Shown here: piece by piece, positions 22,343 through 47,247 of the stretch | How positions within the stretch are numbered: position 1 is the first letter of the stretch | How the letters are laid out: every line of letters starts with the position of its first letter | NCBI RefSeq assembly: GCF_009392895.1 | Contig: NZ_CP045488.1 | Location: 806,001-870,000, forward strand | From: Natronorubrum aibiense | GTDB lineage: Archaea > Halobacteriota > Halobacteria > Halobacteriales > Natrialbaceae | DNA: 64,000 nt | Reading direction: 5' to 3' | Program-made: the position numbers and the translations under genes | The notes under the pieces: generated by a model | Seen by the model: the letters and a program-made list of their open reading frames with translations, nothing else | What the model was told of the DNA's origin: nothing | The model's database searches: none

Positions 22343-22344
22343 GG

Positions 22345-27875: not shown

Positions 27876-29971
27876 CGTTCCTCCGTCGTCAGTATGATCG
27901 ATCCGTTCGCTTCGACCGTCGCCGTCCAGTCAGGGTTGACGACGACCGTGCTGTCGAACTCGTCGATGATCGCCGGCCCGTCGATCTCGGTGCCGGCCGC
28001 CAGCTTCGCGCGCTCGTATCGCGGGACAGTCTGCTCCTCGGGGGCGTCCGGGGTGCCGAAGACGACCGTCGACTCCGTCGTCTTGGCTGCCTCGAGCGCA
28101 CCGTCGGCTGCGATCTCGGGTGGGGCGTACGATTCCACGTCGCCGATCGCAGTCACGCGGACGTTGAGCAGTTCGACCGGGTCCGCCTCGAAGTAGTGGC
28201 CGTACTCGGCTTCGTGTCGCTCCTCGAAGCGTTCGCGGAGTCTGGCGTGCCAGTCGCCGTCGGTTCCGTCGAAGTCGATGTTCAACTCGTAGCCCTGCCC
28301 GTCGTACAGGCAGTCGACCGACGATCTGAACGTCCACCGCGAGGGATCGATCTCGTCGCGCTCGAGTTGCTCACGACCCCGCGCCTCGAGTCGCTCGAAT
28401 GTGTCTTCGATAAATTCACCGTCGACTTCCTCGAGTGGGCTGCTGATCGTCTGCTGGTAGTCGTATTTCACGTTCCCCGTCAGAAGCCCGCGAGCCGAGG
28501 CGATCCCCGGCGACGGCGGCACCAGCACCGTCGAGACCTCCAGTTTCTCGGCGATGCTCGCGCCGTGCATCGGCCCGGCCCCGCCGAAGGCGACCATCGT
28601 ATACTCGCGTGGATCGTAGCCCCGCTGGACGGTCTGTTCGCGAATCGCCCGGTACATGTTCGTGTTCGCGACTTCGAGCGTGGCGAGTGCGGCCTGTTCC
28701 GGCGTCTCGAACTGCGCCTGATCGGTGCGATCACACAACTGCGTCTGTAACGCCTCTCGGGAGCGTTCGGGCTCGAGGTCGAGGTCACCGCCGAGGAAGC
28801 TGTCGGGATCGATCCGACCGAGGACGACCTGTGCGTCGGTCGTCGTCGGCTGGTCGTTGCCGCGAGCATAACAGGCCGGCCCCGGATTCGCGCCAGCGCT
28901 TTTCGGGCCGACGTTGAAGCCCATCGCGTCGTCGAACCAGGCGATCGAGCCGCCACCCGCACCGATCGTTTCGATGTCGAGCATAGGCGTGATCGTCGGA
29001 TAGCCGCCGACAGTACTGTCTCGCGGGTCGCGCTCGAGGACGCGCCCGGGTATCACGGAGATGTCCGCACTGGTACCACCCATATCCAGCATGACGAGGT
29101 TCGGCTCGTCGACGTTCTCCCCTTCGAACGCCGCCGAGAGCACGCCCGCGGCTGGCCCGGAGACGAGCGTCGTGACCGGTTGTTCGGCGACGTTCTGGAC
29201 GCTTGCCATGCCGCCGTTGGACTGCATGATGAGCACTTCGGCGTCGAAGCCCTCGTCGGTGAGTCCGTCGCTGAGTCTCGTCAGATACGTCGACATTACG
29301 GGCTCGAGGCGGGCGTTGATCGCCGTCGTCGTGAACCGCTCGAACTCCCGGAACTGGGCGACGACCTCGCTCGAGGTCGAGACGCTGACGTCGGGGAACT
29401 TCTCGTGAATGAGTTCTTTCGTTCGGTCTTCGTGCTCGCGATTGAGATAGGAGTGGAGATAACAGACAGCGATCGATTCAACGCCATCAGCGACGAGATC
29501 GCCAGTTTGCTCCAGTACTGCGTCTTCATCCAACGGAGTGATAACGTCGCCAGGTGGGAAAATCCGCTCCGAGATTTCTTTTCGATGTCGTCGCTTGACG
29601 ACCGGCTGTTCTTGCCACGAAACTGTCTGCTGGAGAGAGAAACTGTGAGGTTTTCGGTGACGGCCGATATGCAACACGTCACGGAACCCGTCCGTCGTAA
29701 GCAAGCCCGTTTTCGCGCCCTCGTGTTCGATAAGCGCATTCGTCGCGACCGTCGTCCCGTGGAGGATCTGATCGACGTCGGCGGGTTCGATCCCGGCGAG
29801 TTGACAGACTTCGACGATCCCGGTGAGCGTCGACTGCGACGGGTCCGCCGTCGAGGGTGTTTTGAACGTGAACTCGTCGTCCTCGGTGACGAGAATGACG
29901 TCCGTGTTCGTGCCACCGACGTCGACGCCGACACGGGTCTCACTACTGCTATCCGTACTCTTGCTAGCCAT
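27872..29971 (-). CDS. hyuA: HyuA, hydantoinase A-like ATPase subunit (copy 2)
   Basis: The 699-residue HyuA family protein has phosphate-1 'VGVDVGGTNTDVILVTED', 'ILHGTTVATNALIEHEG', phosphate-2 'MLDMGGTSADISVIPG', 'IETIGAGGGSIAWFDDA' and 'VAFGGAGPMHGASIAEKL'. ATG 29971 is used because the open frame upstream of it (to 30394) is antisense to the acyl-CoA dehydrogenase gene. Its stop overlaps the hyuB2 start. The promoter region is shared with the divergent acyl-CoA dehydrogenase and holds an inverted repeat just upstream of the ATG. Confidence 0.93.
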   Translation of the reverse strand: MASKSTDSSSETRVGVDVGGTNTDVILVTEDDEFTFKTPSTADPSQSTLTGIVEVCQLAGIEPADVDQILHGTTVATNALIEHEGAKTGLLTTDGFRDVLHIGRHRKPHSFSLQQTVSWQEQPVVKRRHRKEISERIFPPGDVITPLDEDAVLEQTGDLVADGVESIAVCYLHSYLNREHEDRTKELIHEKFPDVSVSTSSEVVAQFREFERFTTTAINARLEPVMSTYLTRLSDGLTDEGFDAEVLIMQSNGGMASVQNVAEQPVTTLVSGPAAGVLSAAFEGENVDEPNLVMLDMGGTSADISVIPGRVLERDPRDSTVGGYPTITPMLDIETIGAGGGSIAWFDDAMGFNVGPKSAGANPGPACYARGNDQPTTTDAQVVLGRIDPDSFLGGDLDLEPERSREALQTQLCDRTDQAQFETPEQAALATLEVANTNMYRAIREQTVQRGYDPREYTMVAFGGAGPMHGASIAEKLEVSTVLVPPSPGIASARGLLTGNVKYDYQQTISSPLEEVDGEFIEDTFERLEARGREQLERDEIDPSRWTFRSSVDCLYDGQGYELNIDFDGTDGDWHARLRERFEERHEAEYGHYFEADPVELLNVRVTAIGDVESYAPPEIAADGALEAAKTTESTVVFGTPDAPEEQTVPRYERAKLAAGTEIDGPAIIDEFDSTVVVNPDWTATVEANGSIILTTEER

Positions 29972-29976
29972 ACACA

Positions 29977-29993
29977 ACCAGTATCTCTCTGGT
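29977..29993. promoter_or_regulatory. Inverted repeat just upstream of hyuA copy 2
   Basis: ACCAG (29977-29981), seven bases, CTGGT (29989-29993) lies between the HyuA ATG (29971) and a GTTAA box about 30 nt upstream, the position of a repressor operator. A second five-base repeat (TCATC/GATGA, 30030-30046) sits farther toward the divergent acyl-CoA dehydrogenase. Confidence 0.35.
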
Positions 29994-30098
29994 AGAGGAG
30001 TTAACCCTTTCCCCTGTTGCGTGAGTGATTCATCACTGGTGGATGATACATAATTGACAATGCGTAACTTTATCTCACCTACCCCAGAAAGGACAGTG

Positions 30099-31304
30099 AT
30101 GGCCACAGTAGCGACGGATACCATAGAGCTATCAGAACAGCAACAACTCGTCAGAGAGAACATCCGAGACATCTGTAGTGAGTTCGACGACGAGTACTGG
30201 CGAGAAAAAGACCGCGCCAGCGAATACCCCGACGAGTTCGTTACGACGCTCGGCGAGCACGGATGGCTGGGGGTACTCGTTCCCGAAGAGTACGGCGGCG
30301 CAGGCATGGGAACCGCCGAGGTCGTCGTGATGATGGAGGAGATTGCAGCCAGCGGCGGTGGGTTTGCGGCAGCACAGGCGATCCATGGCGGCATCTACAA
30401 CTCCGTGCCGATCGTTCGCCACGGCAGCGACGAACTGAAAGAGCGACTTCTCCCGGATGTTGCCGCCGGCGACGTGGCGATCCAGTCGCTCGGGCTGACC
30501 GAACCGAACGCGGGTTCAGACTCGACGTCGATCGAAACCGTCGCTGAACAACGCGACGGCGAGTACGTCATCAACGGGCAGAAAATCTGGACGTCTCGAG
30601 TCGATGCGAGCGATTATCTGCTCGTCGTTGCTCGAACGACGCCGAAATCAGAGGTTGAGAAACGAACGCGAGGGATTTCGATGTTCCTCGTCAACGTCCA
30701 CGACGCACTCGATGCCGGGACACTCGAGATGAAATCGATCCCGAAGACGGCGAGCAGTGCCGTTCACGCCTACGAACTTTGGTTAGACGATCTTCGGGTC
30801 CCCGCCGACAATCTCATCGGCGAGCGTGGAAACGGCTTTTATCACCTGCTGGATGGGCTCAACGAGGAACGACTGGTAATCGCCGCCGAGTGTCTCGGCC
30901 TCGGTGAACTGGCGGTTCAGAAAGGGGTCGACTACGCCAACGAGCGCGAAGTGTTCAACCGGCCGATCGGTCAGAATCAGGCGATTCAACACCCGCTGGC
31001 GAAAGCCTACGCCGAGATTCAGGCCGCAAAGCAACTGACGTACAACGCCGCGACTGTCGTCGAGGGGGAGTCGGGCGCGGCCGTCGGTGCACAGGCGAAC
31101 ATGGCGAAGTATCTGTCCGCTGAAGCTGCCTTTACGGCTGCCGACGCCGCTGTTCAGGCCCATGGCGGATTCGGTGTCGCACGTGAGTACGATGTCGAGC
31201 GATACTTCAGAGAAGCGCGACTCACACGACTCGTCCCGATCACACAGGAACTCGTCCTCAACTACATCGGGGAGAACGTGCTGGGACTGCCGCGGTCGTA
31301 CTGA
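30099..31304 (+). CDS. Acyl-CoA dehydrogenase
   Basis: The 401-residue FAD-dependent dehydrogenase has 'LTEPNAGSDSTSIETVA' and 'YVINGQKIWTSRVDASDYLL' of the FAD/acyl-CoA site. It also has 'FNRPIGQNQAIQHPLAK' and the C-terminal 'AVQAHGGFGVAREYDVERYF', where a Gly-Gly-x-Gly replaces the catalytic-Glu loop of some subfamilies. The enzyme would oxidise an acyl-CoA to an enoyl-CoA, fitting the CoA-transferase and MaoC hydratase genes 2-4 kb away. ATG 30099 is preferred over an upstream frame beginning at 30054. Confidence 0.93.
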   Translation: MATVATDTIELSEQQQLVRENIRDICSEFDDEYWREKDRASEYPDEFVTTLGEHGWLGVLVPEEYGGAGMGTAEVVVMMEEIAASGGGFAAAQAIHGGIYNSVPIVRHGSDELKERLLPDVAAGDVAIQSLGLTEPNAGSDSTSIETVAEQRDGEYVINGQKIWTSRVDASDYLLVVARTTPKSEVEKRTRGISMFLVNVHDALDAGTLEMKSIPKTASSAVHAYELWLDDLRVPADNLIGERGNGFYHLLDGLNEERLVIAAECLGLGELAVQKGVDYANEREVFNRPIGQNQAIQHPLAKAYAEIQAAKQLTYNAATVVEGESGAAVGAQANMAKYLSAEAAFTAADAAVQAHGGFGVAREYDVERYFREARLTRLVPITQELVLNYIGENVLGLPRSY

Positions 31305-32276: not shown

Positions 32277-33008
32277 CTACAGCTGGTAGCGGTCGGGGTA
32301 GCCGACGATCTCCTTCGATTCCGGCGGCTTGTACGTCCGAATCGAACTCGTTTGCTTGCCCAGTTTGACGAGCGCTTCTGCGAGGACCGCACCCGCGCCG
32401 ACGCTGTCGATGACGGGGACCGGCAACGCCGCCTCGAGCGGTTCGTCGAGACCGCCCATGCCGGCACAGCCGAGACAGATCACTTCGGCACCGTCTTCCT
32501 CGATCGCCTGCCAGCTCGCCTCGAGGAGCGCGTCGGCTGCCGCATCGCGAGTGTTTTCGGTCTCGACGACGGTCAACTCGGTACAGCGAACCGATGCGCA
32601 GTGATCCTCGAGTCCCGTCTTTCGGACGGCTTCCTCGATGAAATCGCGCGCTCGAGGGAGGATCGTCGCCACCGAGAAGTTCGCGCCCAGCATGTTCGCG
32701 ACGTACATCGAGCCCTCGGCGATGCCGACAACCGGTTTGTCGGTGACCTCCCGACACGCGTCAAGCCCTGGGTCGCCCCAGCACGAATTAACGAATGCGT
32801 CGTACTCGTCGTCCTCGTCTTTGAGGATTTCGTCGAGAAGACCGGGCACGGCGAGGTAGTCGTCGTAGTACGATTCGATACTGATCGGTCCACGCTCGGG
32901 CGAGACGGCGACGACCTCGGTTTCGTCGCTCGTATATTTGTTCGCAACCGTCCCGATGTTCTCGGTCATCTCGAGGGTGGTGTTCGGATTGATAGCTTTG
33001 ATTTTCAT
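32277..33008 (-). CDS. Asp/Glu/hydantoin racemase family protein
   Basis: The 243-residue protein of the Asp/Glu racemase superfamily, hydantoin-racemase branch, begins 'MKIKAINPNTTLEMT' with the NPNT motif of this branch. The two catalytic cysteines are C76 ('NSCWGDPGL') and C181 ('CLGCAGM'). Hydantoin racemase interconverts D- and L-5-substituted hydantoins so that stereospecific hydantoinases can use both. The start at 33008 drops a 44-codon upstream extension. It follows the CoA-transferase gene in the same direction (82 bp). Confidence 0.88.
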   Translation of the reverse strand: MKIKAINPNTTLEMTENIGTVANKYTSDETEVVAVSPERGPISIESYYDDYLAVPGLLDEILKDEDDEYDAFVNSCWGDPGLDACREVTDKPVVGIAEGSMYVANMLGANFSVATILPRARDFIEEAVRKTGLEDHCASVRCTELTVVETENTRDAAADALLEASWQAIEEDGAEVICLGCAGMGGLDEPLEAALPVPVIDSVGAGAVLAEALVKLGKQTSSIRTYKPPESKEIVGYPDRYQL

Positions 33009-33090
33009 GGGCGTACGCCACGACAAGAGGTTCTCGGGAGCGAGCAAAGCTGTTTCTCCGGTCGAGTCGGGCGAACGTGACGGCGAGCAG

Positions 33091-34533
33091 TCAGGAGCGC
33101 CAGGCGAATGCCGACTCGAGGTCGTGGGGAGCGTGTCCACCGGCGCTCTCGCTGCGTTCGACGTACGCCTCGAGGTCGTCGACGAACTGCGGGTGGGCGC
33201 ACCTCTCGATGAGCAGCTGGCTACGCTCGCGCGGACAACTCCCTCGAAGGTCGGCGACGCCCTGCTCGGTGATCACGACCGAGATGTCGTGTTCCGTGTG
33301 ATCGACGTGCGGACACATCGGGACGAGACAGGATGTCTCCGTGCCGTGTCTCGAGGGCAACGTCGTAATCGTGAGCGGAGAATTGCGGTTGAAATCGCCG
33401 CTGCCACCGACCCCGTTCAGGACGCGCGAGCCGCCGACGTGCGTCGAGTTGACGTGCCCGTAGAGGTCGACTTCGACGGCGCTGTTGATCCCGACGACGC
33501 CGAAGCGGTCGATCAGCGCCGGGCTGTTCGAGAGCGATGCCGTCCGGAGGATGACTGACTCGCTGTATCGATCGATGTCGTCGAACAGTCGCCGTTGCCC
33601 CTCCACGGAGAGCGCAAACGACGTCGCGCTGGCACCGGTGAGCGTCCCGTTCTCGATCATCTCGAGGAGACCATCTTGAAACACCTCGCCGTAGTAGTAG
33701 ACGTCTCGATCGCCGAAGTCAATGTCCGACAGTGCGCCCATGAGCGCGTTGCCGAGGCTGCCAACGCCGAACTGCAGCGCGATCCGGTCGTCGAAGATCG
33801 AACAGCGCTCGAGTTCGGCCTCGAGAAACGTCGCGAGATTGGTTGCGATCTCTCGGTCGGTCGCCGATGGTTCGCGGAAGCTGTAGGGATCGTCGGGCGT
33901 TTCGGTCTCGACGACGGCAAGGAGAGTATCCGGATCGAACCGAATCTTCGACTCGCCGATCCGATCGGCTGGATGCTCGAGGGGAATGGGCTTTCGGTTC
34001 GGTGGCAGTTCGCGTTCGTAGACGTCGTGGAACTGGCCGATCTCACGTGGGATCGAGCCGTTGACTTCGATGATCAGTTTCGGTGCGGCCCGCACGTAGG
34101 CCGCCGTGTGGCCGATCGACAGCGATGGGACGAACCAGTCCTCGCCGACGGCCACCGCTTCGACGATCGCGACGTCGGGCGTCGGGATATGTCCCAGCGA
34201 GACTTCGTCACCAACCGCCGAAATGAACCGATCCTGATAGGCGATCGTCCCGTCGTTGACCGCCTCCCGCGCCGCAGGGCGCGACTGATAGGGGTAGCGA
34301 CGGGCGACTGCCCCTGTCTCGACGAGCGCCGTATCGATCTCCTTGCCGACGCTGCCGCCGCTGACGACTGTCAGTTCGAGGTCCCGATCGGCTTCGGCGA
34401 GTGCCAACGGCAGCGCCTTCGGGTAGCCGACCGCGCCGAACCCGCTGACGGCAACGACCGCATCGCTGTCGACGTGGGCGGCGGCCGTCTCGGCGTCGAC
34501 CGGTTCGATCGCGCCCTCGAGTCGGTTGTTCAT
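33091..34533 (-). CDS. Acetyl-CoA hydrolase/CoA-transferase family protein
   Basis: The 480-residue class I CoA-transferase of the succinyl-CoA:acetate/acetyl-CoA hydrolase (Cat1/Ach1) group has 'VSGFGAVGYPKALPLALAE' near the N-terminus. It also has the catalytic-Glu segment 'GINSAVEVDLYGHVNSTHVG', 'GVGGSGDFNRNSPLTITTLP' and 'VVITEQGVADLRG'. It would activate a free acid of the pathway as its CoA ester. The start overlaps the MaoC stop by ATGA, so the two are one transcriptional unit with the racemase. Confidence 0.9.
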   Translation of the reverse strand: MNNRLEGAIEPVDAETAAAHVDSDAVVAVSGFGAVGYPKALPLALAEADRDLELTVVSGGSVGKEIDTALVETGAVARRYPYQSRPAAREAVNDGTIAYQDRFISAVGDEVSLGHIPTPDVAIVEAVAVGEDWFVPSLSIGHTAAYVRAAPKLIIEVNGSIPREIGQFHDVYERELPPNRKPIPLEHPADRIGESKIRFDPDTLLAVVETETPDDPYSFREPSATDREIATNLATFLEAELERCSIFDDRIALQFGVGSLGNALMGALSDIDFGDRDVYYYGEVFQDGLLEMIENGTLTGASATSFALSVEGQRRLFDDIDRYSESVILRTASLSNSPALIDRFGVVGINSAVEVDLYGHVNSTHVGGSRVLNGVGGSGDFNRNSPLTITTLPSRHGTETSCLVPMCPHVDHTEHDISVVITEQGVADLRGSCPRERSQLLIERCAHPQFVDDLEAYVERSESAGGHAPHDLESAFAWRS

Positions 34534-36060: not shown

Positions 36061-36897
36061 TCAGTTGTTCTCGCGGAACTCGGTGGCGACGGTGTCCATC
36101 TCTTCGAACTCGACGTCGTCGTGGCTTTTCATGTGTTCGATCAGTTCCTCGAGTCGCGAGATGCGGTGGGCCTGTCCGATGACCTGCGGGTGCAGCGTCA
36201 AGATGAACACGCCGTCGTCGACGTTCTCGTGCATCCAATCGAACTGGTCGTAGTAGCGCTGGAACAGCGAATCCTCGCTCACGTACCCCATGCGGTGTGG
36301 GCGCGCCCAGGTGAACGTCAGGGCGGGCCAGTCGTCGCGCTGCCACGAAACGGGGAGTTCGACGAGATCGGTTGGTTCGCCGCGGTCGTACGGGCCATCC
36401 TCGGGCGCGCTCCAGTTGCCGTACAGCCAGTGGGGCTCGAAGTCGGATGCCATCTTGCTCGAGTCCCATTCGATGCCGACTTCGTCTAAGATGTCGAGCG
36501 TGTTCGCCGAGTAGTCCCACGCTGGCGAGCGGTAGCCGGTTGGTTTGCGACCGGTGAGATCGACGATCGAGTCGATCGCTCGTTCGACGTCTGCCATCTC
36601 ATCTTCTTTGGTTTCGTACGTTGCGGGTCCGGTGTGACTCCAGCCGTGATGCTGGATATCGTAGCCACGGTCCCACACCTCAGCACTGATCTCCGGGAAG
36701 CTGTCGATCGTGTGACCGGGGATAAACCACGTCGCAGGAATGTCGTGTTTGTCGTGGAGGTCGAGCAGGCGCGGCGCACCGACGTTGGCGCCATAGACGC
36801 CTCGAGAATGTCGTGTTGGCATATCCCATGAGTCATATGACCATAGCCACGTCGATACCGCGTCAAAGTCGTACGTAAGGCATACTTTGGACGTCAT
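36061..36897 (-). CDS. Polysaccharide deacetylase family (PuuE/allantoinase-like) hydrolase
   Basis: The 278-residue NodB-fold protein has 'CLTYDFDAVSTW' (the two Asp), 'DIQHHGWSHTGP' (His-x3-His metal site) and 'PTGYRSPAWDYSA'. No signal peptide is present, so it acts in the cytoplasm. Cytoplasmic members with this layout include metal-independent allantoinase PuuE and related cyclic-amide hydrolases, which fits the ureide theme better than polysaccharide work. A TTTTAAGA box 27 nt upstream of ATG 36897 predicts a leaderless transcript. Confidence 0.88.
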   Translation of the reverse strand: MTSKVCLTYDFDAVSTWLWSYDSWDMPTRHSRGVYGANVGAPRLLDLHDKHDIPATWFIPGHTIDSFPEISAEVWDRGYDIQHHGWSHTGPATYETKEDEMADVERAIDSIVDLTGRKPTGYRSPAWDYSANTLDILDEVGIEWDSSKMASDFEPHWLYGNWSAPEDGPYDRGEPTDLVELPVSWQRDDWPALTFTWARPHRMGYVSEDSLFQRYYDQFDWMHENVDDGVFILTLHPQVIGQAHRISRLEELIEHMKSHDDVEFEEMDTVATEFRENN

Positions 36898-37004: not shown

Positions 37005-37853
37005 TCAGGACTGTCTAGAACCGTAGACGACGAGTCCACCGGCGACGAGGAGCAACAGGGTGGAAAACACTGTGGTCACGCTCCCGAGGGCGAACAGTTC
37101 GGGGGTTGCACGCTCGGCGGAGGCGATACTGAACACTTCCATCGGCATGGTTCGGTCGCGGCCGACGAGGAGCAAACCACGTTCGGCCTCGTTGTACGAG
37201 AGCGTAAACGCGAAGACGGCCGCACCGAGGACAGTCGGTGCGATCTGTGGCAACACGATTTCACGGAACGTCGTTAGGCGACTCGCGCCCATCACTCGAG
37301 CGGCCTCTTCGTTCTGTGCCAAGTTCGGCGGGAAGCCGGCGAGCAAGACGATGACGGCAAACGGGACCGTCCAGACGACGTGTGCCGGCAGCGCGAGCCA
37401 CATCGACCGGGAGAGGCCGAGAACCTCGTTCAGAAACAGCGTCGAACCGACGCTGAAGGCGATCCCCGGCGTGATGATCCCGAGCACGATCAGGTACAGG
37501 AACAGCTTCCGGCCACGGAAATCAAAGCGGTACGCGAGTGCTGCGGCAGTGCCGAGTACCGTCGTGATCACCGTGACAACGAGCGCGAGTTGGACCGATC
37601 GCATGACCGAAGAGATGATCCCCTGATTCGCGAGTAATTCACTGTACCACGCCAACGTAAATCCTTGATACGGCGGTGAGATTCCGCCCGCGTTGAACGA
37701 GAACCCGATCAGCGCGATCATCGGCGCGTAGATGTACAGCGAGATCAGGATGAAATACGTTGCCAGCAGCCGTTTCATATTGAACCACTGTACGAGCCGC
37801 GTCAGTGCAGGTTGTTTCAACTCGGCATCGACCGAAGAGTGCTTTGTTGCCAT
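37005..37853 (-). CDS. ABC transporter permease, PotC-like (second membrane subunit)
   Basis: The 282-residue protein has six spans and the EAA loop 'EEAARVMGASRLTTFREIVLPQIAPTVLG' (split around residues 195-222) that contacts the ATPases. It belongs to the BPD_transp_1 family, spermidine/putrescine PotC group. Its partner permease and binding protein lie at 39.8-42.1 kb, separated from it by the opposite-strand chaperonin-like gene. A TATA-like element about 25 nt upstream (37874-37883) gives it its own promoter. Confidence 0.92.
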   Translation of the reverse strand: MATKHSSVDAELKQPALTRLVQWFNMKRLLATYFILISLYIYAPMIALIGFSFNAGGISPPYQGFTLAWYSELLANQGIISSVMRSVQLALVVTVITTVLGTAAALAYRFDFRGRKLFLYLIVLGIITPGIAFSVGSTLFLNEVLGLSRSMWLALPAHVVWTVPFAVIVLLAGFPPNLAQNEEAARVMGASRLTTFREIVLPQIAPTVLGAAVFAFTLSYNEAERGLLLVGRDRTMPMEVFSIASAERATPELFALGSVTTVFSTLLLLVAGGLVVYGSRQS

Positions 37854-37988
37854 CTACCCTGAGTACTGGTGGCATATCATATAAAGATACTGCGCAGGAT
37901 TTCTGTCAACGAGCCATAGGAATCGGACAGATCCGGCCATTCGTGGATAGGTTTTTATCCGCTGGCCGTCGGAATGACAGTGTTACAC

Positions 37989-39758
37989 ATGGAAGACGGA
38001 GCCGAAACAGGTGGGGAAATCCAGTTTCCACACGCAAACATCGTCGCCGCTCGAGCGGTCACTGGTGTCCTCGAGAGTTCGGTCGGGCCGCTCTCTCACG
38101 ACACACTGATCACGGGCCGTCCGCCCGGAGACCGGGAACCGGGCGAACCCGAAACCCTGACTGATACGATCAGCAGCGACGGCGCGACGATTCTCGAGGA
38201 GCTCCCGATCGAACACCCGATGGGCCCGATTATTCGGCGGCTCGTCGCGCCGGAGCGACCGGGAACGACAGACGTCGTCGGCGAACTCGTGCCCGATGGT
38301 GTCGGAACGACCGTGGTGTTACTGGGTGCGCTGTTAGCGGAGGGTGAGCGCCTGCTCGAGCAGGGATTGCATCCGACGACCATCGAGGAGGGGTACAGCC
38401 TGGGCCTCGAGCGGGTCGAACGAACGCTCCAGTCGCTTTCGAGGCCGCTCGAGGAGTTCGACGATCCGACTGCTGCCGCCGAGATGGTCGCACGCTCGGC
38501 GATGACAGGTAACGACATCGGAAACGCACGGGACGTGTGGGCGGCGGGTGCTGTCGAAGCGGCGAGGCAGGTGGGGATGCCGGACGAGGAGACGCTTGCG
38601 ATCCGCCAGATTCGATCGGGATCGATCGCCGACTCACGGCTCGTCTCCGGAACGGTCCTCGATCGAAACGAGATCTGCGACGACCGGATGCCCCGTCGAA
38701 TCGAGGACGCGAACGTGCTGGTACTCAGCGGGTTCAAACGCGGGAAGGCAAACGACGGCAAAACGGGCGGGTTGCAGGATCCCGACTTCCAGCAAGATGG
38801 TGAGCGGATCGTCGTCGATTCGCCGGACGAGATCGCCGAGTTCGACGAGGTGTTCGTCCGCCGCCGCGAACAGGTCGTCGCCGGTCTCGTCGACGCCGGT
38901 GTCGACGTCGTCGTGACCAGAACCGGAATCAACGATGCGTATCAGGACTTGCTCGTCGAACACGGCATCGTGGGTATCCGCGGTGTCAACCGGCTCAAAC
39001 TCACACAGCTGGCGCAGGCAACGGGTGCGACGCCAGTCGTCGACCCGACCGATGTAACGCCAGCCGATCTCGGCTCCGCGGGCCTCGTCGAACAGCAGGT
39101 TATCGACCAGCGACAGGGCCGTCGAAAGCGCCGGCGCATGGTCGTCTTCGACGACTGTTCGGATCCGGAGTCGGTGACGTTCCTCCTCCACGGCGCTCAC
39201 GGTCAACTCGGCGAACAAGCCGCGACGGAGATCAGAAAAGCCGTCGCGGCGGTTGCGACGGCGACCGGCCAGACGACCGGGCCGGCGGGCGTCCTCCCCG
39301 GTGGCGGCGCAACGGAACTCGCGGTCGCGCAGTCGCTCCGTCGCGACGCTCTCGACGTCGACGGCCGGAAACAGCTCGTCCTCGAGGCCTTCGCCGATGC
39401 GACGGAGCAGTTCGTGTCGACGCTCGCTCGGAACGCGGGGATGGACACGCTCACGACGCTGACGAACCTTCGGGAGGCGACGACGAACGCGACGAACGGG
39501 ACCAGTCCGGGACTCGTCTTGCCAGAGAAACGCGTCGGCGACGTCCTCAAGGCAGGGCTGCTCGACCCGACGGGGATCCGGCTACGGTGTTACCGACACG
39601 CCGTCGACGTCGCCGTGCTCATCCTTCGCGTTGACGACGCGATCGATGCGACGTTTACCGACGAGCCGACGGAACCGGGTGATGCGATCTACGACGAGCA
39701 CGCGGAACTCCATCAGGAGTATCTCGACGAACAGGACGAGACGATCTGGCACCAGTAG
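37989..39758 (+). CDS. Divergent TCP-1/cpn60 (group II) chaperonin-like protein, predicted ATPase-deficient
   Basis: The 589-residue protein aligns with thermosome subunits through equatorial, intermediate and apical domains. It shows 'SDGATILEELPIEHP' (63-77), 'RIEDANVLVLSGF' (237-249), 'GINDAYQDLLVEHGIVGIRG' (313-332) and 'QLAQATGATPVVDPTDVTPADLG' (340-362). It also shows 'LPGGGATELAVAQSLR' (436-451) and 'EAFADATEQFVSTLARNAG' (466-484). Two ATPase residues are changed: GDGTT reads GVGTT (V105), with a residue missing just after, and the catalytic Asp of the (I/V)EDAL helix reads IRKAV (K417). A TTTTTAT box at 37951-37958 favours ATG 37989 over ATG 37974. It lies between two permease genes on the opposite strand. 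Its role is unknown: scaffold, partner of true thermosome subunits, or a specialised folding factor for island enzymes. Confidence 0.88.
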   Translation: MEDGAETGGEIQFPHANIVAARAVTGVLESSVGPLSHDTLITGRPPGDREPGEPETLTDTISSDGATILEELPIEHPMGPIIRRLVAPERPGTTDVVGELVPDGVGTTVVLLGALLAEGERLLEQGLHPTTIEEGYSLGLERVERTLQSLSRPLEEFDDPTAAAEMVARSAMTGNDIGNARDVWAAGAVEAARQVGMPDEETLAIRQIRSGSIADSRLVSGTVLDRNEICDDRMPRRIEDANVLVLSGFKRGKANDGKTGGLQDPDFQQDGERIVVDSPDEIAEFDEVFVRRREQVVAGLVDAGVDVVVTRTGINDAYQDLLVEHGIVGIRGVNRLKLTQLAQATGATPVVDPTDVTPADLGSAGLVEQQVIDQRQGRRKRRRMVVFDDCSDPESVTFLLHGAHGQLGEQAATEIRKAVAAVATATGQTTGPAGVLPGGGATELAVAQSLRRDALDVDGRKQLVLEAFADATEQFVSTLARNAGMDTLTTLTNLREATTNATNGTSPGLVLPEKRVGDVLKAGLLDPTGIRLRCYRHAVDVAVLILRVDDAIDATFTDEPTEPGDAIYDEHAELHQEYLDEQDETIWHQ

Positions 39759-39829: not shown

Positions 39830-40738
39830 TTAGTCTTGACTCGCGATCTCGGTGATGTCGACGACTCTGAACAGCAGGAACACGAACGCGAAGATGACCA
39901 CGAGTAGCGTAATCGAGAGCGCAGCAGCCGAGGGGTAGTTGAGCCCCTGACCGTAGCGGCTGTAGATCAGCGTTGGAACGGTGTTCGACCCGCCGCTGAG
40001 AAACGACGGCACAGTGAAGTTCCCGATCGTCAGCACGAAGGTGAACATACAGCCGATCGCGACGCCGGGAAGGCTCAGCGGCCACGTAACGTTCTTGAAC
40101 GTCTCGACTGGATCACCGCGCAGCGTTTCGGAGGCGTCGAGCAGTCCTTCGTCGATCTGCGACAGCGAGATGTAGATCGGTGCCGCCATGAACACGACGT
40201 AGTTCTGGAGATAGCCAACAGCCTGTGAGAACGACGAGAACAGCAGCCAACTGACCGGACTACTAGTGAGCCCGACGTTCATCAATAGGCCGTTGATGAT
40301 CCCGTTTCGTCCCAGAATTGGGAACCAGCCGAACGTTCGGATCAGCTCCGACGTCCAGAACGGGATGACGAGGAACAACAGCAAGACGAGTCCCACCATC
40401 GGCGTGGTGTAGAATCGAAGGTAGTACGCAAGCGGGTAGCCGAACACGAGCGTGATAAGCGTCACGACGACACCGACGCCGATCGTTCGGACGAACGCAC
40501 CACGGACTGCACCGGAACCGAACACGCCATCAACCCACGCCGTGAGCGTAAACTCGTTGATCACGTTGAACGACTGATAGGTGAGGAAGCTGTAGTAGAA
40601 AATAACGAGCAACGGTAGCAGTAAGAAGACAGCGAACCACAGCACTGTCGGCGCTATTAGCCCGGTTACTTCGTTTATCAAGTCGTCCCTGTCGGTTGCA
40701 AGTAGACCCGAGATGCCGGTTTTGGGTTCAGAACTCAT
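39830..40738 (-). CDS. ABC transporter permease, PotB-like (first membrane subunit)
   Basis: The 302-residue protein has six spans. The loop 'LLDASETLRGDPVETFKNVTWPLSLPG' (about residues 200-226) is the EAA-type ATPase contact of PotB-like permeases. It follows the binding-protein gene by 47 bp in the same direction and is surely co-transcribed with it. Substrates of this transporter group include polyamines, thiamine, phosphonates and opine-like compounds; the setting suggests an N-containing nutrient. Confidence 0.92.
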   Translation of the reverse strand: MSSEPKTGISGLLATDRDDLINEVTGLIAPTVLWFAVFLLLPLLVIFYYSFLTYQSFNVINEFTLTAWVDGVFGSGAVRGAFVRTIGVGVVVTLITLVFGYPLAYYLRFYTTPMVGLVLLLFLVIPFWTSELIRTFGWFPILGRNGIINGLLMNVGLTSSPVSWLLFSSFSQAVGYLQNYVVFMAAPIYISLSQIDEGLLDASETLRGDPVETFKNVTWPLSLPGVAIGCMFTFVLTIGNFTVPSFLSGGSNTVPTLIYSRYGQGLNYPSAAALSITLLVVIFAFVFLLFRVVDITEIASQD

Positions 40739-40785: not shown

Positions 40786-42114
40786 TTAGGCCGAGAGGAA
40801 GTCCTCCCAGCGTGAGATCATGTAGTCAGCCTCACTGGGCCAGATCTGGAAGAAGCCGATACGGTCGATCCGTTCTTCGATCGGACCACTGTCGCGGGTG
40901 CCGCCGTTCGAATCGGGCGAGCCTTCCTCCATCGACCAGTCGTAGTCGAGCGGATCGAACAGCGCCGGTTCGTCGATCGACTCGTACGTCGCTTCGCCGC
41001 GGTACGCCCAGTCGTAGTACTCCGGCCCCATGCCGTCGCCGGAGTCATCCGAGCCGTCGCGGACGAGTTCTTCGTTTTCGTAGTGAGGCACGGAGTAGCC
41101 ACGTCCCTGAACGAATCCGGGGAACCACGCACCGAGGTGGACCTGATCGTACAGGAACGTGACCTGCTCGACGTTCTGGCGCTCCCGTGCACCCTCGAGA
41201 GTCGCCATCCCGCCGTACCAGTAGCGGTAGCCCTGAATGCCCTCACTCATCGTGGCGTAGGTGCACGGCGTCCCCTCTCGGCGGACGTCCATCGCTGCCG
41301 GCTGCCAGACGTCGCCGATAACCGCCTCTTCGCCGGCCATCAGCGTCACGGACTCGCCGTAAGCTTCCCAGGTCGAACGGAACTGCCCGGCTTCTTTCTG
41401 CTCGATGAGGTAATCGATCGCCGTATCGAGTTGGTCCTGCGTCGGGTTGTTCAATTGGCCGATGTCGCCATCGATCATGTCGTTGTCCAACAGGTGCATG
41501 ATCGCCTGCGGAATGGTGATCGCTGCCGTTTCTCCGACGATCACCTCTCCCTCGTACTGTTCGTCGAACTGGGTACTCCACAGGGAGACGTCGTCGACGA
41601 ACGACGGGTTGTACCCCATCGCGTCGAAGTTGTACGCGTACGGCGAGAACAGAATCTCGTCGCGGGTGTCGCCGTCGACCCATAGTTCCTGATTGACCGT
41701 CTCGACTTGCTCACCGAGGTGACTGAGCCGCTCGGCCGGATTGGTGAACAGATCGGAAATCTGCTCTTCGTCCCAGTTTTCTAAGTCGTCGACTGGCATC
41801 GGAATCGTCGACGGGTTATCTCGAGTGAGTGCCCCAGCACCTGTCGTGTCCGAGGTGAACACGTCCGTGTTCTGTGAGCCGCCACCGAGGAGTTGGGCCT
41901 GCGTGTCACCGATCGTCGCAATCGTCGTGTTCACCTCGACGCCCGACATCTCCTCCATTTTGGCAGCCTGCTCGTCACTGACCGCCCAGTCCGGGCCGAT
42001 CCACTCCATTGGTCGTGCTGGGCCGTCGTCGCCGCCGACACACCCGGCGAGCGCGGCGCCCGCTGCTGCTCCACCGTACGCTACAAAGTTTCGCCTACTG
42101 ATACCGTCTGGCAT
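40786..42114 (-). CDS. ABC transporter extracellular substrate-binding lipoprotein, PotD-like
   Basis: The 442-residue protein begins with a Tat signal (SRRNFVAYGG) and a lipobox ending LAGC, and is thus exported folded and lipid-anchored. The mature part fits family 1 / PotD-type binding proteins ('EEMSGVEVNTTIATIGDTQAQ', 'NFDAMGYNPSFVDD', 'GDVWQPAAMDVRREG'). It is the first gene of the transporter operon. A GTTTAATA box about 30 nt before the ATG predicts a leaderless transcript. It is divergent from the asparaginase gene. Confidence 0.92.
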   Translation of the reverse strand: MPDGISRRNFVAYGGAAAGAALAGCVGGDDGPARPMEWIGPDWAVSDEQAAKMEEMSGVEVNTTIATIGDTQAQLLGGGSQNTDVFTSDTTGAGALTRDNPSTIPMPVDDLENWDEEQISDLFTNPAERLSHLGEQVETVNQELWVDGDTRDEILFSPYAYNFDAMGYNPSFVDDVSLWSTQFDEQYEGEVIVGETAAITIPQAIMHLLDNDMIDGDIGQLNNPTQDQLDTAIDYLIEQKEAGQFRSTWEAYGESVTLMAGEEAVIGDVWQPAAMDVRREGTPCTYATMSEGIQGYRYWYGGMATLEGARERQNVEQVTFLYDQVHLGAWFPGFVQGRGYSVPHYENEELVRDGSDDSGDGMGPEYYDWAYRGEATYESIDEPALFDPLDYDWSMEEGSPDSNGGTRDSGPIEERIDRIGFFQIWPSEADYMISRWEDFLSA

Positions 42115-42268: not shown

Positions 42269-43252
42269 ATGCCACTATCAGTCGTGATCCTCAGCACGGG
42301 CGGCACAATCGCAAGTACCGGCGCCGACGGCGGTGCGACGCCGAGCAAACGGGGTGCAGAACTGGTCGACGCCGTCCCAGAACTCGAGGAGTACGCCGAC
42401 CTCACGGTCGAAGAGCTCGCACAGGTGCCGAGCTACGATATGACGTTCGACACCATGACGGAACTCGCCGCAGCCGTGCGGCGCGTCGCGGCTGACGGCG
42501 CGGACGGCGTCGTCGTCACCCACGGCACCGATACAATCGAAGAATCCGCGTACTTCCTCGACCTCACGCTCGAGTGTGCGATTCCGGTCGTTTTCACCGG
42601 CGCACAGCGCCGTCCCGACGAGGTCAGCCCGGACGGTCCGGCAAACCTGCTCACGGCAATTCGGGCTGCAACGCACACTGATTTCCACGATGGCGTCTAC
42701 GTCGCTGCAAACGACGAGGTCCACGCCGCACGCGACGTGACGAAAACTCACACTAGCGCACTCGAGACCTTCGACTCGCCGAGTACGGGACCGATCGCCT
42801 CGGTGACGCGCGCTGCCGTTCGGATCGTCCGTGAGCCGCGAAGCTACTCGGCGACATTCGACGTTCGAGACGTGACGAGCGACATCGTGATCGTCGCCAG
42901 CGGCGCAGACATGGGTCGTCGACAGATCGATCATGCGCTCGAGGACGACGTCGATGGCATCGTCGTCGACGGGACGGGGCTCGGGAATACGACGAGCGAA
43001 CTCGGAGACGCGATCGCCGACGCCGTTGCCACGGAGACACCTGTCGTCGTCACCTCGCGATGTCCGGCCGGAACGACGGAACCTGTGTACGGCGGTGGCG
43101 GTGGCGGGGAAACGTTGCGCTCACACGGGGCGATCTTCGGCGCCGATCTCCCGGCTCAGAAAGCGCGAATCAAACTCGCAGTCGTCTGTGCCGTCACCGA
43201 CGATCTCGAGGAGCGACGACAGCTGTTCGCCGGCGAGGAACTCGAACGATAG
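42269..43252 (+). CDS. L-asparaginase family amidohydrolase
   Basis: The 327-residue protein has both active-site Thr motifs: 'ILSTGGTIASTGADGG' at the N-terminus and 'VVTHGTDTIEESAYFLDL' (residues about 82-99). The C-terminal domain includes 'GIVVDGTGLGNTTSEL'. It lacks a signal peptide, so it is cytoplasmic (type I-like). It releases ammonia from asparagine or a related beta-amide, in keeping with the other amidases here. It is followed 33 bp later by an SDR gene. Confidence 0.92.
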   Translation: MPLSVVILSTGGTIASTGADGGATPSKRGAELVDAVPELEEYADLTVEELAQVPSYDMTFDTMTELAAAVRRVAADGADGVVVTHGTDTIEESAYFLDLTLECAIPVVFTGAQRRPDEVSPDGPANLLTAIRAATHTDFHDGVYVAANDEVHAARDVTKTHTSALETFDSPSTGPIASVTRAAVRIVREPRSYSATFDVRDVTSDIVIVASGADMGRRQIDHALEDDVDGIVVDGTGLGNTTSELGDAIADAVATETPVVVTSRCPAGTTEPVYGGGGGGETLRSHGAIFGADLPAQKARIKLAVVCAVTDDLEERRQLFAGEELER

Positions 43253-43285: not shown

Positions 43286-44059
43286 ATGTCAGACAAACGC
43301 CTAGCGGGACGTGTCGCACTCGTTACGGGTGCGAGTTCGGGTATCGGAAACGCGATTGCAGCGAAATTCGGGGCCGAAGGGGCCAGCGTCGTCGTCGCCG
43401 ACATCAGACGCGAGCCGAAACTCGAGGACGAACAATCCGTCTTCGATCGGCTCGACGCCGTCGGCGCCGACTACGAGTTCGTCGAGATGGACGTCACGGA
43501 CGAAGACGCGATCATCGACGCACTCGAGACGGCACAAGCCGAGTTCGGCGGGCTGGATATCCTCGTGAACAACGCGGGGATCTACTTCCAGAATCAAGCC
43601 CACGAGACGCCGATCGACGAGTACGACGCGATCATGGACGTCAACCTTCGGGGCGTGTTCCTCGCGAGTAAACACGCGCTCGAGTCGCTGAAAGTGAGCG
43701 ATCACGGAAAGATCATCAATCTCTCGTCGATCTATGGGCTGGTTGGCGGACCGAACAGCGCCGCCTACTGCGCGTCGAAAGGAGGCGTCTCCAATCTGAC
43801 CCGACAGTTGGCGCTCGATTACGCGAGCGACGAGATCAACGTCAACGCGCTGGCTCCGGGCATCATCGAGACCGCTCAGAATGCCGAGTGGCGCGAAACC
43901 GACGAGGAACTGCTCGCCGACTGGCAGGCCTCGACGCCGTGGCCGCGCTTCGGAACGCCTGAAGACGTCGCCGATGCGGCCCTGTTTCTGGCGAGCGACG
44001 AGAGCGAGTTCGTCACCGGCCACGTCCTGCGCGTCGACGGCGGCTGGACGGCGTGGTGA
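43286..44059 (+). CDS. Short-chain dehydrogenase/reductase (SDR)
   Basis: The 257-residue classical SDR has 'VTGASSGIGNAIAAKFG', 'DILVNNAGIYF', Ser in 'IINLSSIYGLVG' and the catalytic YCASK. The final 'GHVLRVDGGWTAW' is typical of the fold. It is the second SDR of the island and is not especially close to the first. The stop overlaps the start of the DUF3830 gene, so their products are probably used together. Confidence 0.92.
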   Translation: MSDKRLAGRVALVTGASSGIGNAIAAKFGAEGASVVVADIRREPKLEDEQSVFDRLDAVGADYEFVEMDVTDEDAIIDALETAQAEFGGLDILVNNAGIYFQNQAHETPIDEYDAIMDVNLRGVFLASKHALESLKVSDHGKIINLSSIYGLVGGPNSAAYCASKGGVSNLTRQLALDYASDEINVNALAPGIIETAQNAEWRETDEELLADWQASTPWPRFGTPEDVADAALFLASDESEFVTGHVLRVDGGWTAW

Positions 44060-44496
44060 TTCGCGTGAGCGAACTCCACCTCACCGTTGGCGAAAAGACG
44101 TACGTCGCACCGCTGCTCGAGGACGAAGCGCCCGAGTCGGTACGTGCGCTGAAATCGTTCCTGCCACTGGAATCGGAGCTGATGCACGTCCGCTGGAGTG
44201 GCCACGCGACGTGGATCAATATCGACGAGATCGAGTTGCCGGACCTGCCGCGGGAGAACCACACCGTCTACCCCTCTCGTGGCGACGTTCTGCTCTACCC
44301 CGGCTACAAGAACGAACAGGAGATTCTGGTCGCATGCGGGCCGACGTGTTTCAAAAGTCCGGCGGGTGAACTCGCCGGCAACCACGTCGCGACGCTCGAG
44401 GCAACGCGTGACGAACTCACCGCACTGGAAGAGCACACGCTCAGAGACGGCGTGCAGCCGGTTACAGTAGCAATCCGCGAGTCAACCGAAGACTGA
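44056..44496 (+). CDS. DUF3830 family protein
   Basis: The 146-residue protein matches DUF3830, a cyclophilin-like small barrel: 'LLEDEAPESVRALKSFLPLE', 'MHVRWSGHATWINIDEI' and 'YPSRGDVLLYPGYKNEQEIL'. Two GTG codons (44053, 44056) and a later GTG (44065) could start it; 44056 forms a GTGA overlap with the SDR stop. DUF3830 proteins are recurrently found beside hydantoinase, racemase and transporter genes but have no known activity. It is one of the better clues that this island handles an unusual ureide. Confidence 0.82.
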   Translation: MIRVSELHLTVGEKTYVAPLLEDEAPESVRALKSFLPLESELMHVRWSGHATWINIDEIELPDLPRENHTVYPSRGDVLLYPGYKNEQEILVACGPTCFKSPAGELAGNHVATLEATRDELTALEEHTLRDGVQPVTVAIRESTED

Positions 44497-44533: not shown

Positions 44534-45736
44534 TTATTCACCCAGAATGTCCGTCTCGAGGTCGATGCCGTCGACGACGCTCGTCCGCTCGAGGAGGGTC
44601 GCATGGTCTGCGCTCCAGCCGATGGTGACGGTTTCGGCTGGATCGATACGCTCGAACGATTTCAGCTGGAGTTCGTGTGCGTCGCCGTCGGTTGTCGTCG
44701 CCTCGAGGATCACGTGCGTTCCCGAACCGGGTTGGTGGATAACGTCATCGACCCGGCAGCTGACGCTGTTGTCGAGCTCATCGGAGACCTCGAGATACTG
44801 CGGCCGAACGGAAAAGGGGACTTGCTCGCCGATGAGCAGCGCCGGTTCGGAGCGGAGGTTCGACGTGGTCGCGAGAAACGTTCCGAGCGGTGTCTCGATA
44901 TGCGCGTGGTTGCCGTCGTCGGTGACGTCGGTCAACTCGCCTGTAAAGATATTCGAGTCGCCGACGAACGCCGAGACGAACGCCGTCGCGGGCTCGTTGT
45001 AGACGCGCTCGACGGTGTCGGATTGTTCGACTTTGCCATCGTTCATGACGACGATCTGGTCGGCGAGGCGCATCGCTTGTGTCTGGTCGTGCGTGACGTA
45101 GACGAACGTCGTATCGAGTTCGCGGTGGAGTCGAAGCAGTTCCCGCTCCATGTGTTTCTGGAGCTTGTAGTCCATGTCCCCGAGCGGTTCGTCGAGCAAG
45201 AGGAGTCTCGGTTCGAGGACCATACTCCGAGCGAGCGCGACGCGCTGTTTTTGCCCGGCGGAGAGCTCTTCGGGCTGGCGCTCGATGAGGTCGCCGAGTC
45301 GCATCATCTCGACGATATCGTTGACGCGGGTCGTTCGTTCGTCTTTCTCGACGCCGAGGCGTTCTAACCCGTAGGCGATGTTTTCCTCGACGGTCAGATG
45401 TGGAAACAGCTGAAAGTCCTGAAATACGAGCCCGATATCGCGTTCGTATGTGGGTGCATCGGTCACGTTTTTCCCACCGAGTCGGATCTCCCCTTCGGTG
45501 ACCGGTATTTTCCCGACGAGCGAGTGCAGCGTCGTCGACTTCCCACAGCCGCTAGGACCGATCAAGACGCAGAAGTCGCCGTCCGTGATACTGAAGTCGA
45601 TGTCGTCGACAGCGAGCGTTCCGTCGGGATAGATCTTCGTCAGTCCGCACACCTCGAGTGCGAGGTCATCAATCGGTTCGTCGAGTGTCGGTTCGGTCGG
45701 CGAGACGTCCGCCCCGGAGTGGTCTGTATCAGACAT
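44534..45736 (-). CDS. ABC transporter ATP-binding protein (PotA-like) 1
   Basis: The 400-residue ATPase has Walker A 'GPSGCGKST', signature 'LSAGQKQR', Walker B 'LLLLDEPLGDMD' and the switch His in 'VYVTHDQTQAM'. A C-terminal TOBE/OB regulatory domain follows (about residues 265-400). An acidic N-terminal tail of about 25 residues precedes the domain. ATG 45736 is the natural start. It lies 2 bp from the second ATPase gene, both reading toward the permeases. Two distinct ATPases suggest a heterodimeric motor. Confidence 0.93.
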   Translation of the reverse strand: MSDTDHSGADVSPTEPTLDEPIDDLALEVCGLTKIYPDGTLAVDDIDFSITDGDFCVLIGPSGCGKSTTLHSLVGKIPVTEGEIRLGGKNVTDAPTYERDIGLVFQDFQLFPHLTVEENIAYGLERLGVEKDERTTRVNDIVEMMRLGDLIERQPEELSAGQKQRVALARSMVLEPRLLLLDEPLGDMDYKLQKHMERELLRLHRELDTTFVYVTHDQTQAMRLADQIVVMNDGKVEQSDTVERVYNEPATAFVSAFVGDSNIFTGELTDVTDDGNHAHIETPLGTFLATTSNLRSEPALLIGEQVPFSVRPQYLEVSDELDNSVSCRVDDVIHQPGSGTHVILEATTTDGDAHELQLKSFERIDPAETVTIGWSADHATLLERTSVVDGIDLETDILGE

Positions 45737-45738
45737 GG

Positions 45739-46866
45739 TCAGTTGTCGATGAGTTCGGCAGCGGTCACTGCATCGGTCACGCTGAGCTCGTCGAAGTAAA
45801 GCGCATCGTCGGCGTTCCACCCGAGCACGATCGGATCGCCGACTGTGCCGGTATCCGGACTGTTCGGGACGACGACGTGGAAATCGCGGTCGAGTCCATC
45901 GAGCGAGACCGCGAATTCGGTCGTTTCGCCGGTGTATGTCCGTCCTTCGAGGGTTCCAGTGAGCGTTACATCGCAGTCGTCCGTCTCGAGCGAGACGGCT
46001 TCTGGACGGATGATCACGACACCTGTACTCTTCTCGGAACCGTTCTGAGCAGTCGCCGTAATCGATCCGATTTCGGTCTCGACGTCGACGGTCTCGCCGT
46101 CGACATTGGTCGGAGCGCCATCCGCCATCAGCACGTTCGAGTCACCAACGAACCGGCAGACGAACGCCGTCTTCGGATCGTGATACACCGTCTCGGGGGA
46201 GCCGATCTGTTCGATCATCCCGTGGTTCATCACGACAACTTTGTCGGCGAGTTTGAGCGCCTGATCTTGATTGTGCGTGATGTAGAGGAACGTGCTCCCG
46301 AGCGTCGAGTGGAGACTCCGCATCTCGAGTTCCATCCGCTTTTGAAGCTTGTAGTCGAGGTCGGCGAGCGGATCGTCGAACAGCATGACCGAACACTCGC
46401 GGCTCAACTGTCGCGCCAACTCCACGCGCTGTTGTTGCCCGCCCGAGAGCGCACCCGGCAGGTCGTCTTTGGTCTCCTCGATCGCGAGTAACTCGAGCAT
46501 CTCGTCGATCGTGGCTTCGATCTCCGCTGTGGAACGCTCACGGCTTCCCTGCTCGAGACCGAACGCGATGTTCTCGGCGACGGTTTTGTGCGGAAACAGC
46601 GTCTCTTCGAACTCCTGAAACACGTAGCCGAGTTCGCGCTCCTGTACCGACAGCTCGGACGCATCACGACCGTCGAGTGAGATCCTACCGTCATCGGACT
46701 CGATCAATCCAGCGATGCACTTGAGCAGCGTACTCTTTCCACAGCCGCTCGGTCCAAGGACGACGCAGAATTCCCCGTCCTCGACCTCGAGTTCGATATC
46801 TCGAAGCACCGTTTCCTCACGAAACGATTTAGTCACTGACTCGATCGAAATTGCGCTAGTCGTCAT
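45739..46866 (-). CDS. ABC transporter ATP-binding protein (PotA-like) 2
   Basis: The 375-residue ATPase has Walker A 'GPSGCGKST', signature 'LSGGQQQR', Walker B 'VMLFDDPLADLD' and switch 'LYITHNQDQAL'. A TOBE domain follows ('VVIIRPEAVSLE'). Walker B ends in D-D-P rather than the usual D-E-P, so the catalytic Glu is an Asp here; ATPase 1 keeps the Glu. This could make one site of a heterodimer degenerate. The first gene of the unit starts at ATG 46866. Confidence 0.93.
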   Translation of the reverse strand: MTTSAISIESVTKSFREETVLRDIELEVEDGEFCVVLGPSGCGKSTLLKCIAGLIESDDGRISLDGRDASELSVQERELGYVFQEFEETLFPHKTVAENIAFGLEQGSRERSTAEIEATIDEMLELLAIEETKDDLPGALSGGQQQRVELARQLSRECSVMLFDDPLADLDYKLQKRMELEMRSLHSTLGSTFLYITHNQDQALKLADKVVVMNHGMIEQIGSPETVYHDPKTAFVCRFVGDSNVLMADGAPTNVDGETVDVETEIGSITATAQNGSEKSTGVVIIRPEAVSLETDDCDVTLTGTLEGRTYTGETTEFAVSLDGLDRDFHVVVPNSPDTGTVGDPIVLGWNADDALYFDELSVTDAVTAAELIDN

Positions 46867-47247
46867 CACATCACATTGTGTAGGGCGAGCATTTAGCTCT
46901 ATCTGCTCTGCAGTCGATTCGGAACAGTAGTCGTGACAGCTCATCAAACCGCCGTGGTGACTCCAAGAGGACTCTCGATACGGAATTCACATTTGGGTTG
47001 CGAATTTGTGACACTCTTTGACAAGACCCCGCGGGTGCGCGCTGTGAACTACCAGTATAGTGCCGGGAGAGTTGCTCGAACAGGAGATGGATTGTCCGTG
47101 CTCGAGTCATCGTTCGGTTCCAATCGGGATGGTTCACATGGCAGAAAGATCATATATAACCCCACAATAGTGTATAGTTGTGTACACATTATAAAATATA
47201 AGCTGGACAGTTAACGCGATACCGACTAACCCGTCAGTGGTTTTCGG
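46867..47247. other. Intergenic region upstream of the ATPase genes
   Basis: This 381-bp stretch has no supportable gene. Its last 110 bases are AT-rich and include ATCATATATAAC (about 47148) and the palindrome TGTGTACACA (about 47177-47187), which look like promoter/operator material. No gene on the plus strand begins within reach, and the gene on the minus side (OsmC) ends here. Confidence 0.4.

Follow-up and report, generated by a model that had tools for sequence, protein, structure and literature searches.

A haloarchaeal group II chaperonin homologue with a replaced catalytic aspartate is co-inherited with one predicted ABC importer

Introduction

Chaperonins are viewed as ATP-driven general folding machines. 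What, then, might a chaperonin do whose ATPase site is altered and whose neighbours are transporter genes? This question is raised by a locus of the haloarchaeon Natronorubrum aibiense, in which a chaperonin-like gene is flanked by two permease genes running on the opposite strand. The window, that is, the whole stretch of DNA that was analysed, comprises 64,000 nucleotides. A previous sequence-only reading of it had described a pseudo-ATPase chaperonin lacking both ATPase aspartates within a ureide catabolic island, and had suggested a dedicated scaffold or a protein that caps or modulates thermosome rings.

Results and Discussion

The gene encodes an intact group II chaperonin homologue

The gene and its upstream element are as follows:

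37989..39758, plus strand: chaperonin-like gene, 589 aa, a member of clade I (see below), supported by the Pfam Cpn60_TCP1 match, the AlphaFold2 model and dN/dS
37950..37959, plus strand: conserved TATA-like element GGTTTTTATC, lying about 35 bases before the chaperonin-like gene starts

The open reading frame is intact. An in-frame ATG at 37974 provides a second possible start upstream, and the start at 37989 agrees with those of the orthologues. The protein matched Pfam Cpn60_TCP1 over residues 60–554 (E 5.9e-87), and group II chaperonins were its best NCBIfam and PDB matches, with far lower scores for GroEL models. With 297 and 284 bits against the NCBIfam thermosome alpha and beta models, respectively, it remained below both curated cut-offs (450 and 400). 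In the AlphaFold2 monomer model, a full chaperonin fold was predicted (pLDDT 81.2, pTM 0.80), although the input alignment contained canonical thermosomes and was therefore biased toward this fold; the low-confidence parts were residues 251–255 and 269–272 of the apical insertion. A VIA structure match to TF55 (4xcg_B; Z 40.7, rmsd 4.1, 463 residues) and a Foldseek match of the model to Mm-cpn 5w79 (E 1.4e-37) were also obtained. In line with the alignment to group II chaperonins over three domains reported earlier, the product is a genuine homologue of group II chaperonins that is under selection and has a predicted three-domain fold.

The TATA-like element was common to the upstream regions of six Natronorubrum orthologues, and we infer that it gives the gene a promoter of its own, from which transcription diverges from that of the potC-like gene. 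Three canonical thermosome genes of the host lie on the same contig, away from the chaperonin-like gene, and their products share approximately 30–34% identity with the chaperonin-like protein. The earlier placement of the gene between transporter genes and apart from other chaperonin genes was thus correct.

The catalytic aspartate is lost and the GDGTT aspartate is kept

Residues of the active site were mapped by alignment to the following codons:

38178..38180, plus strand: D64, the GroEL D52 equivalent, kept (SDGATIL)
38295..38303, plus strand: D103-G104-V105, with the GDGTT Asp kept and its first Thr changed to V105
38511..38513, plus strand: N175, at the Mm-cpn K161 position (MTGK changed to MTGN)
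39237..39239, plus strand: K417, at the Mm-cpn D386 / GroEL D398 position (catalytic Asp, IEDAL helix)

In the profile alignment to the Methanococcus maripaludis chaperonin (Mm-cpn), the clade column 'rK' corresponded to D in wild type 3kfb and to A in the D386A chain 5w74, which agrees with the replacement of the catalytic IEDAL aspartate by K417 that had been read from the sequence. No Asp or Glu was found from residue 414 to the GGG motif (stretch 415–440, IRKAVAAVATATGQTTGPAGVLPGGG), and hence a shifted catalytic Asp is ruled out. The second proposed loss, however, proved to be wrong: the residue taken for a substituted GDGTT Asp, V105, occupies the position of the first Thr, while D103 aligned to the Asp in all three alignments made (phmmer, MAFFT and profile to PDB chains; PDGVGTT vs. 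GDGTTTA). A loss of both aspartates is therefore ruled out, and the description as a pseudo-ATPase in a metabolic island is supported, except that a single catalytic Asp is missing instead of two.

Besides the D52 and D87 equivalents of GroEL, the nucleotide-loop Gly-Pro and the GGG motif were kept; the SDGATIL and GGGATE motifs, as already noted, are both present. Further changes, beyond those in the sequence-only reading, concern K161 (Asn), the Thr pair of GDGTT and the Lys of LGPKG, a motif that reads GPLSH here. Mm-cpn K161 is presumably the nucleotide-sensing lysine. With regard to the catalytic position, the nearest functional comparison is the Mm-cpn D386A mutant, where the same residue is lost and ATP is bound but not hydrolysed (PMC5019054); that variant is an engineered single change, whereas the clade described next carries a natural D to K replacement plus further losses.

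The same changes define a conserved, mobile clade

A tree to see whether homologues share the losses had been suggested earlier, and it recovered a monophyletic, haloarchaeal clade with support 100/100 (17 clade rows), here called clade I, whose members lie in similar islands. The position of Mm-cpn D386 was Lys in 15 of the 17 members and Gln in two, that of K161 was Asn in all 17, and the first Thr of GDGTT was Val or Ile in every row. By contrast with these losses, the GDGTT Asp (D103 equivalent) and the GroEL D52 equivalent were Asp in 17/17.

Orthologues with 71–88% identity were present in six other of ten Natronorubrum genomes. They showed the same gene order, the chaperonin gene being flanked by the two permease genes and running in the opposite direction, and the three genomes without the gene also lacked the permease orthologue. 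More distant members occurred in another two genomes from the family to which Natronorubrum belongs, and Haladaptatus, Halarchaeum, Halobellus and Haloarcula carry such members on plasmids. In a profile search of 392 sampled Halobacteriales genomes, clade I was detected in 15 genomes from six GTDB families, with a wide gap between its scores (at least 766 bits) and those of all other chaperonins (at most 363). Outside Halobacteriales, no member was found when 295 genomes of the phylum were sampled, the best other match reaching 379 bits. The plasmid and order-wide searches, by extending the clade to six families, ruled out an oddity of Natronorubrum only.

Identity between families within clade I was 44–50%, with the clade-specific residues still invariant. 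Pairwise dN/dS across the Natronorubrum genes ranged from 0.08 to 0.29, and variable sites were distributed over the three codon positions as 176/137/464, the third being the most variable, a clear signature of purifying selection in these sequences.

Clade I is further characterized by a clade-wide insertion of approximately 11–17 residues within the stem-loop that follows the P-loop, by about 8 additional residues before PDG and by four residues inserted ahead of V[LV]PGGG. Part of the clade carries a glycine-rich apical insertion, which is invariant in Natronorubrum (FKRGKANDGKTGGLQDP). In most members, the GGM tail of thermosomes is replaced by a conserved acidic tail ending in TIW.

This C-terminal tail has the pattern EPT.PGDAIYDEHAE.HQ.YL.E..TIW (residues 556–589, window 39654–39755) and is absent in the Haladaptatus halobius member. 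Another peculiarity is the strongly basic stretch RQGRRKRRR at residues 375–383 (R375...R383, window 39111–39137), which is unusual for a haloarchaeal protein; most of clade I conserves it, whereas the members from Haloarcula litorea and Halarchaeum show it weakly or not at all.

The constant partner is an ABC importer

The island genes in the window are listed below, with their occurrence among the 17 islands examined:

37005..37853, minus strand: ABC importer permease, PotC-like (BPD_transp_1, PotC the best NCBIfam match); in 17/17 islands
39830..40738, minus strand: ABC importer permease, PotB-like (domain matches); in 17/17 islands
40786..42114, minus strand: substrate-binding protein (SBP_bac_8, translation) with a Tat/lipoprotein-type N terminus (SRRNFV...LAGC), the signal being judged by eye; in 17/17 islands
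44534..45820, minus strand: ABC importer ATPase 2 (ABC_tran and TOBE_2); in 17/17 islands
45739..46947, minus strand: ABC importer ATPase 1 (ABC_tran and TOBE_2); in 17/17 islands
36061..36897, minus strand: PuuE-like polysaccharide deacetylase / allantoinase-type hydrolase (Polysacc_deac_1, PuuE domain match); not in all islands
42269..43252, plus strand: asparaginase family (domain match); in some islands only
43286..44059, plus strand: SDR oxidoreductase (domain match); variable among islands
44056..44496, plus strand: DUF3830 protein; variable among islands
26043..30394, minus strand, with another pair at 20369–24369: hydantoinase/oxoprolinase A and B genes; variable among islands
32277..33140, minus strand: Asp/Glu/hydantoin racemase; variable among islands

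The binding protein and the clade I chaperonin were found in exactly the same 15 of 392 Halobacteriales genomes, the former at 59% identity or more and without any match in the E range from 1e-173 to 1e-60. The corresponding Fisher p of 2e-27 ignores phylogeny and joint transfer and is descriptive only. In three genomes (G227, G166 and G418), the two genes are separated by 17–19 kb. The binding protein, both permeases, both ABC ATPases and the chaperonin occurred together in all 17 islands, whereas the PuuE-like hydrolase, asparaginase, hydantoinase A, SDR, DUF3830, racemase and CoA-metabolism genes were each absent from some, with the proviso that islands were read as stretches of about 18–38 kb, so that a gene scored as missing could lie farther off. 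All the tested window enzymes were absent from the stretch read in Haloarcula litorea, where importer and chaperonin are present.

Since no catabolic gene occurs in every island, the chaperonin is tied to the ABC importer and not to ureide catabolism. Synteny with hydantoinase genes, also proposed for scrutiny, holds for some islands, but hydantoinase A is missing from others among the 17. Taken together, these genome comparisons show that the clade I chaperonin is inherited as a unit with one predicted Tat-type binding-protein ABC importer.

The PuuE-like hydrolase was considered as a constant partner and ruled out: it is missing from several islands and, at 68–69% identity, also occurs in genomes without a clade I chaperonin. 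Where present, it usually shows 81–84% between families vs. 44–68% for the chaperonin and importer genes, a high conservation that suggests recent transfer or stronger constraint. With regard to the hydantoinase/oxoprolinase genes, the two A and B pairs lie on the same strand within 10 kb, and the second A gene has an unusually long predicted N terminus (840 aa).

A proposed role and its alternatives

The loss of the catalytic Asp, together with the constant co-inheritance with the importer, suggests a chaperonin rebuilt for one transporter and not for the whole cell. Our preferred reading, to which we assign a probability of roughly 0.4, is that clade I represents a dedicated, non-hydrolysing chaperonin for that importer. 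The protein would probably still bind nucleotide and, because this would not be hydrolysed, would not run an open/close folding cycle. Instead, it might be dedicated to a soluble component of the importer and act as its chaperone or assembly factor, the likeliest clients being the binding protein and the paired ABC ATPases. The binding protein would probably be folded in the cytoplasm before its export by Tat, and a client may be held or templated by the clade I protein as opposed to being folded through ATP cycling.

Several lines of evidence are consistent with a dedicated importer chaperonin: the retention with the importer in 15/15 genomes and 17/17 islands, each enzyme gene being missing from some; the occurrence of PuuE without the chaperonin; the predicted fold (pLDDT 81), the 100/100 clade and dN/dS values of 0.08–0.29; the conserved TATA-like element of its own, divergent from the potC-like gene; the behaviour of Mm-cpn D386A, which binds but cannot hydrolyse ATP (PMC5019054); and the precedent of the GroEL of SmoABCD-type clusters (PMC11057499). 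However, plasmid-borne joint transfer can yield co-inheritance without physical partnership, and the majority of the binding proteins that haloarchaea export by Tat evidently need no chaperonin of their own. In addition, the PuuE-like gene directly adjoins the chaperonin gene in five islands, and evolutionary-distance correlations between the chaperonin and the importer genes (0.67–0.85) single out no client.

The clade I protein could alternatively enter the CCT1/2/3 rings of the host as an extra non-hydrolysing subunit, retuning their asymmetry or client range upon expression of the island. Hetero-oligomeric assemblies are formed by eukaryotic CCT and by many archaeal thermosomes, three canonical thermosome genes are available in the host and the whole predicted fold is kept. 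Nevertheless, we consider such a mixed ring unlikely given that identity to the host subunits is just 30–34%, that the stem-loop insertion, the replaced tail and the 8 extra residues before PDG could disturb ring contacts, and that a gene mobile over six families would need to fit many different thermosomes. A homo-oligomeric ring or monomer might otherwise provide the island's catabolic enzymes with a compartment or with a scaffold, the latter in keeping with the sequence-only reading. The island holds hydantoinases, a racemase, an asparaginase and the PuuE-like hydrolase; other haloarchaeal chaperonin lineages likewise adjoin formamidase or sugar-acid enzymes. The finding that no enzyme gene is common to all 17 islands, and that Haloarcula litorea keeps importer and chaperonin in a stretch without the tested enzymes, makes this quite improbable.

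The conserved basic stretch R375...R383 and the divergent transcription from the potC-like gene would fit a sensor or regulator, binding nucleotide, ligand or possibly nucleic acid, of the expression or activity of the importer. We regard this as very doubtful, as the stretch is weak or lost in two members (those of Haloarcula litorea and Halarchaeum), the domain search of the protein found no DNA-binding domain and several clade I islands already have annotated IclR or Lrp regulators. Equally improbable is ordinary cycling with ATP hydrolysis, in which Lys417 or another residue would compensate for the missing Asp: the D52 and D87 equivalents, Gly-Pro and the GGG motif are intact, but the single D386A change suffices to abolish hydrolysis in Mm-cpn (PMC5019054), and K161 and the Thr pair are altered too. 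Finally, the loss of catalytic residues could point to a functionless, decaying thermosome duplicate. This is contradicted by the open frames, the low dN/dS, the clade-specific residues that stay invariant at 44–50% between-family identity and the strict retention with the importer, so that a pseudogene is ruled out by selection and conservation and the notion of decay is scarcely tenable.

Precedents and other divergent haloarchaeal chaperonins

Clade I shares with thermosomes and CCT (Mm-cpn 3kfb, 5w74) the three-domain fold, the Gly-Pro, the GDG and SDG aspartates and the GGG motif, and differs from them in Asp386 (Lys), Lys161 (Asn), the GDGTT Thr pair and LGPKG, as well as in its stem-loop insertion and, in most members, an acidic TIW tail in place of GGM. 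The nearest precedents of a dedicated or non-hydrolysing chaperonin are the GroELs dedicated to di-iron monooxygenase operons and the MKKS/BBS chaperonins, which are pseudo-ATPases. Along with the GroEL of SmoABCD clusters, MmoG and MimG are operon-dedicated GroEL paralogues of soluble di-iron monooxygenases. The SmoABCD-linked groEL is part of a functional di-iron monooxygenase cluster (PMC11057499). These systems resemble clade I in that a private chaperonin gene is kept with one catabolic cluster; they belong to group I, however, whereas clade I consists of group II proteins in which the hydrolysis site is broken and the constant partner is an ABC importer. MKKS/BBS6, BBS10 and BBS12 are divergent group II chaperonin-like proteins of animals with altered ATP-hydrolysis motifs, and MKKS has been reported at centrosomes as a free monomer (PMC2846930). 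They are similar to clade I in both divergence and motif alteration but are eukaryotic and presumably of independent origin. A description of haloarchaeal clade I was not found in the open-licence literature searched.

A more general proposal, which we put forward as speculative and unlikely as a whole, is that haloarchaea have on several occasions enlisted group II chaperonins to serve single nutrient-uptake or catabolic systems as private and largely non-hydrolysing partners, clade I being the obligate assembly factor of one ABC importer and possibly escorting its Tat-exported binding protein. If true, importer assembly and Tat binding-protein escort would be a chaperonin use not described so far. 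Being mobile, with hydrolysis given up, the fold kept and one importer as partner, clade I offers a natural test of a motorless chaperonin and of whether private group II chaperonins exist. Gain and loss experiments would be direct, as some haloarchaea are genetically tractable and most are without the gene.

Three other divergent lineages were recognized. Lineage II chaperonins (100/100) adjoin or lie near formamidase (fmdA) in Haloarcula marismortui, Natronomonas pharaonis, Natrinema and Halocatena, and their catalytic Asp position is Thr or Gly in Natronomonas and Natrinema. Mandelate-racemase / dihydrodipicolinate-synthase islands harbour lineages IIIA and IIIB, and several of these islands also contain sugar-type ABC importers. 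The D386 position was lost in 3/3 rows of IIIA, 1/3 of IIIB and 2/4 of lineage II; in IIIA, the equivalents of GroEL D52 and D398 are both lost. One common origin of the island-linked chaperonins (I, II, IIIA and IIIB) was unsupported and, because the deep branches are weak (63/64), an independent origin of these lineages is possible.

The lineage II loci (L083:5854-7470, L147:5932-7578, L148:5908-7623 and L149:5911-7614) are plasmid-borne in haloarchaea and are often accompanied by AmiS/UreI or other transporters. Those of IIIA and IIIB (L084:5701-9048, L144:8001-9695, L145:8001-9572 and L146:8001-11260) belong to Halomarina and Haladaptatus, and in some replicons the two genes are adjacent.
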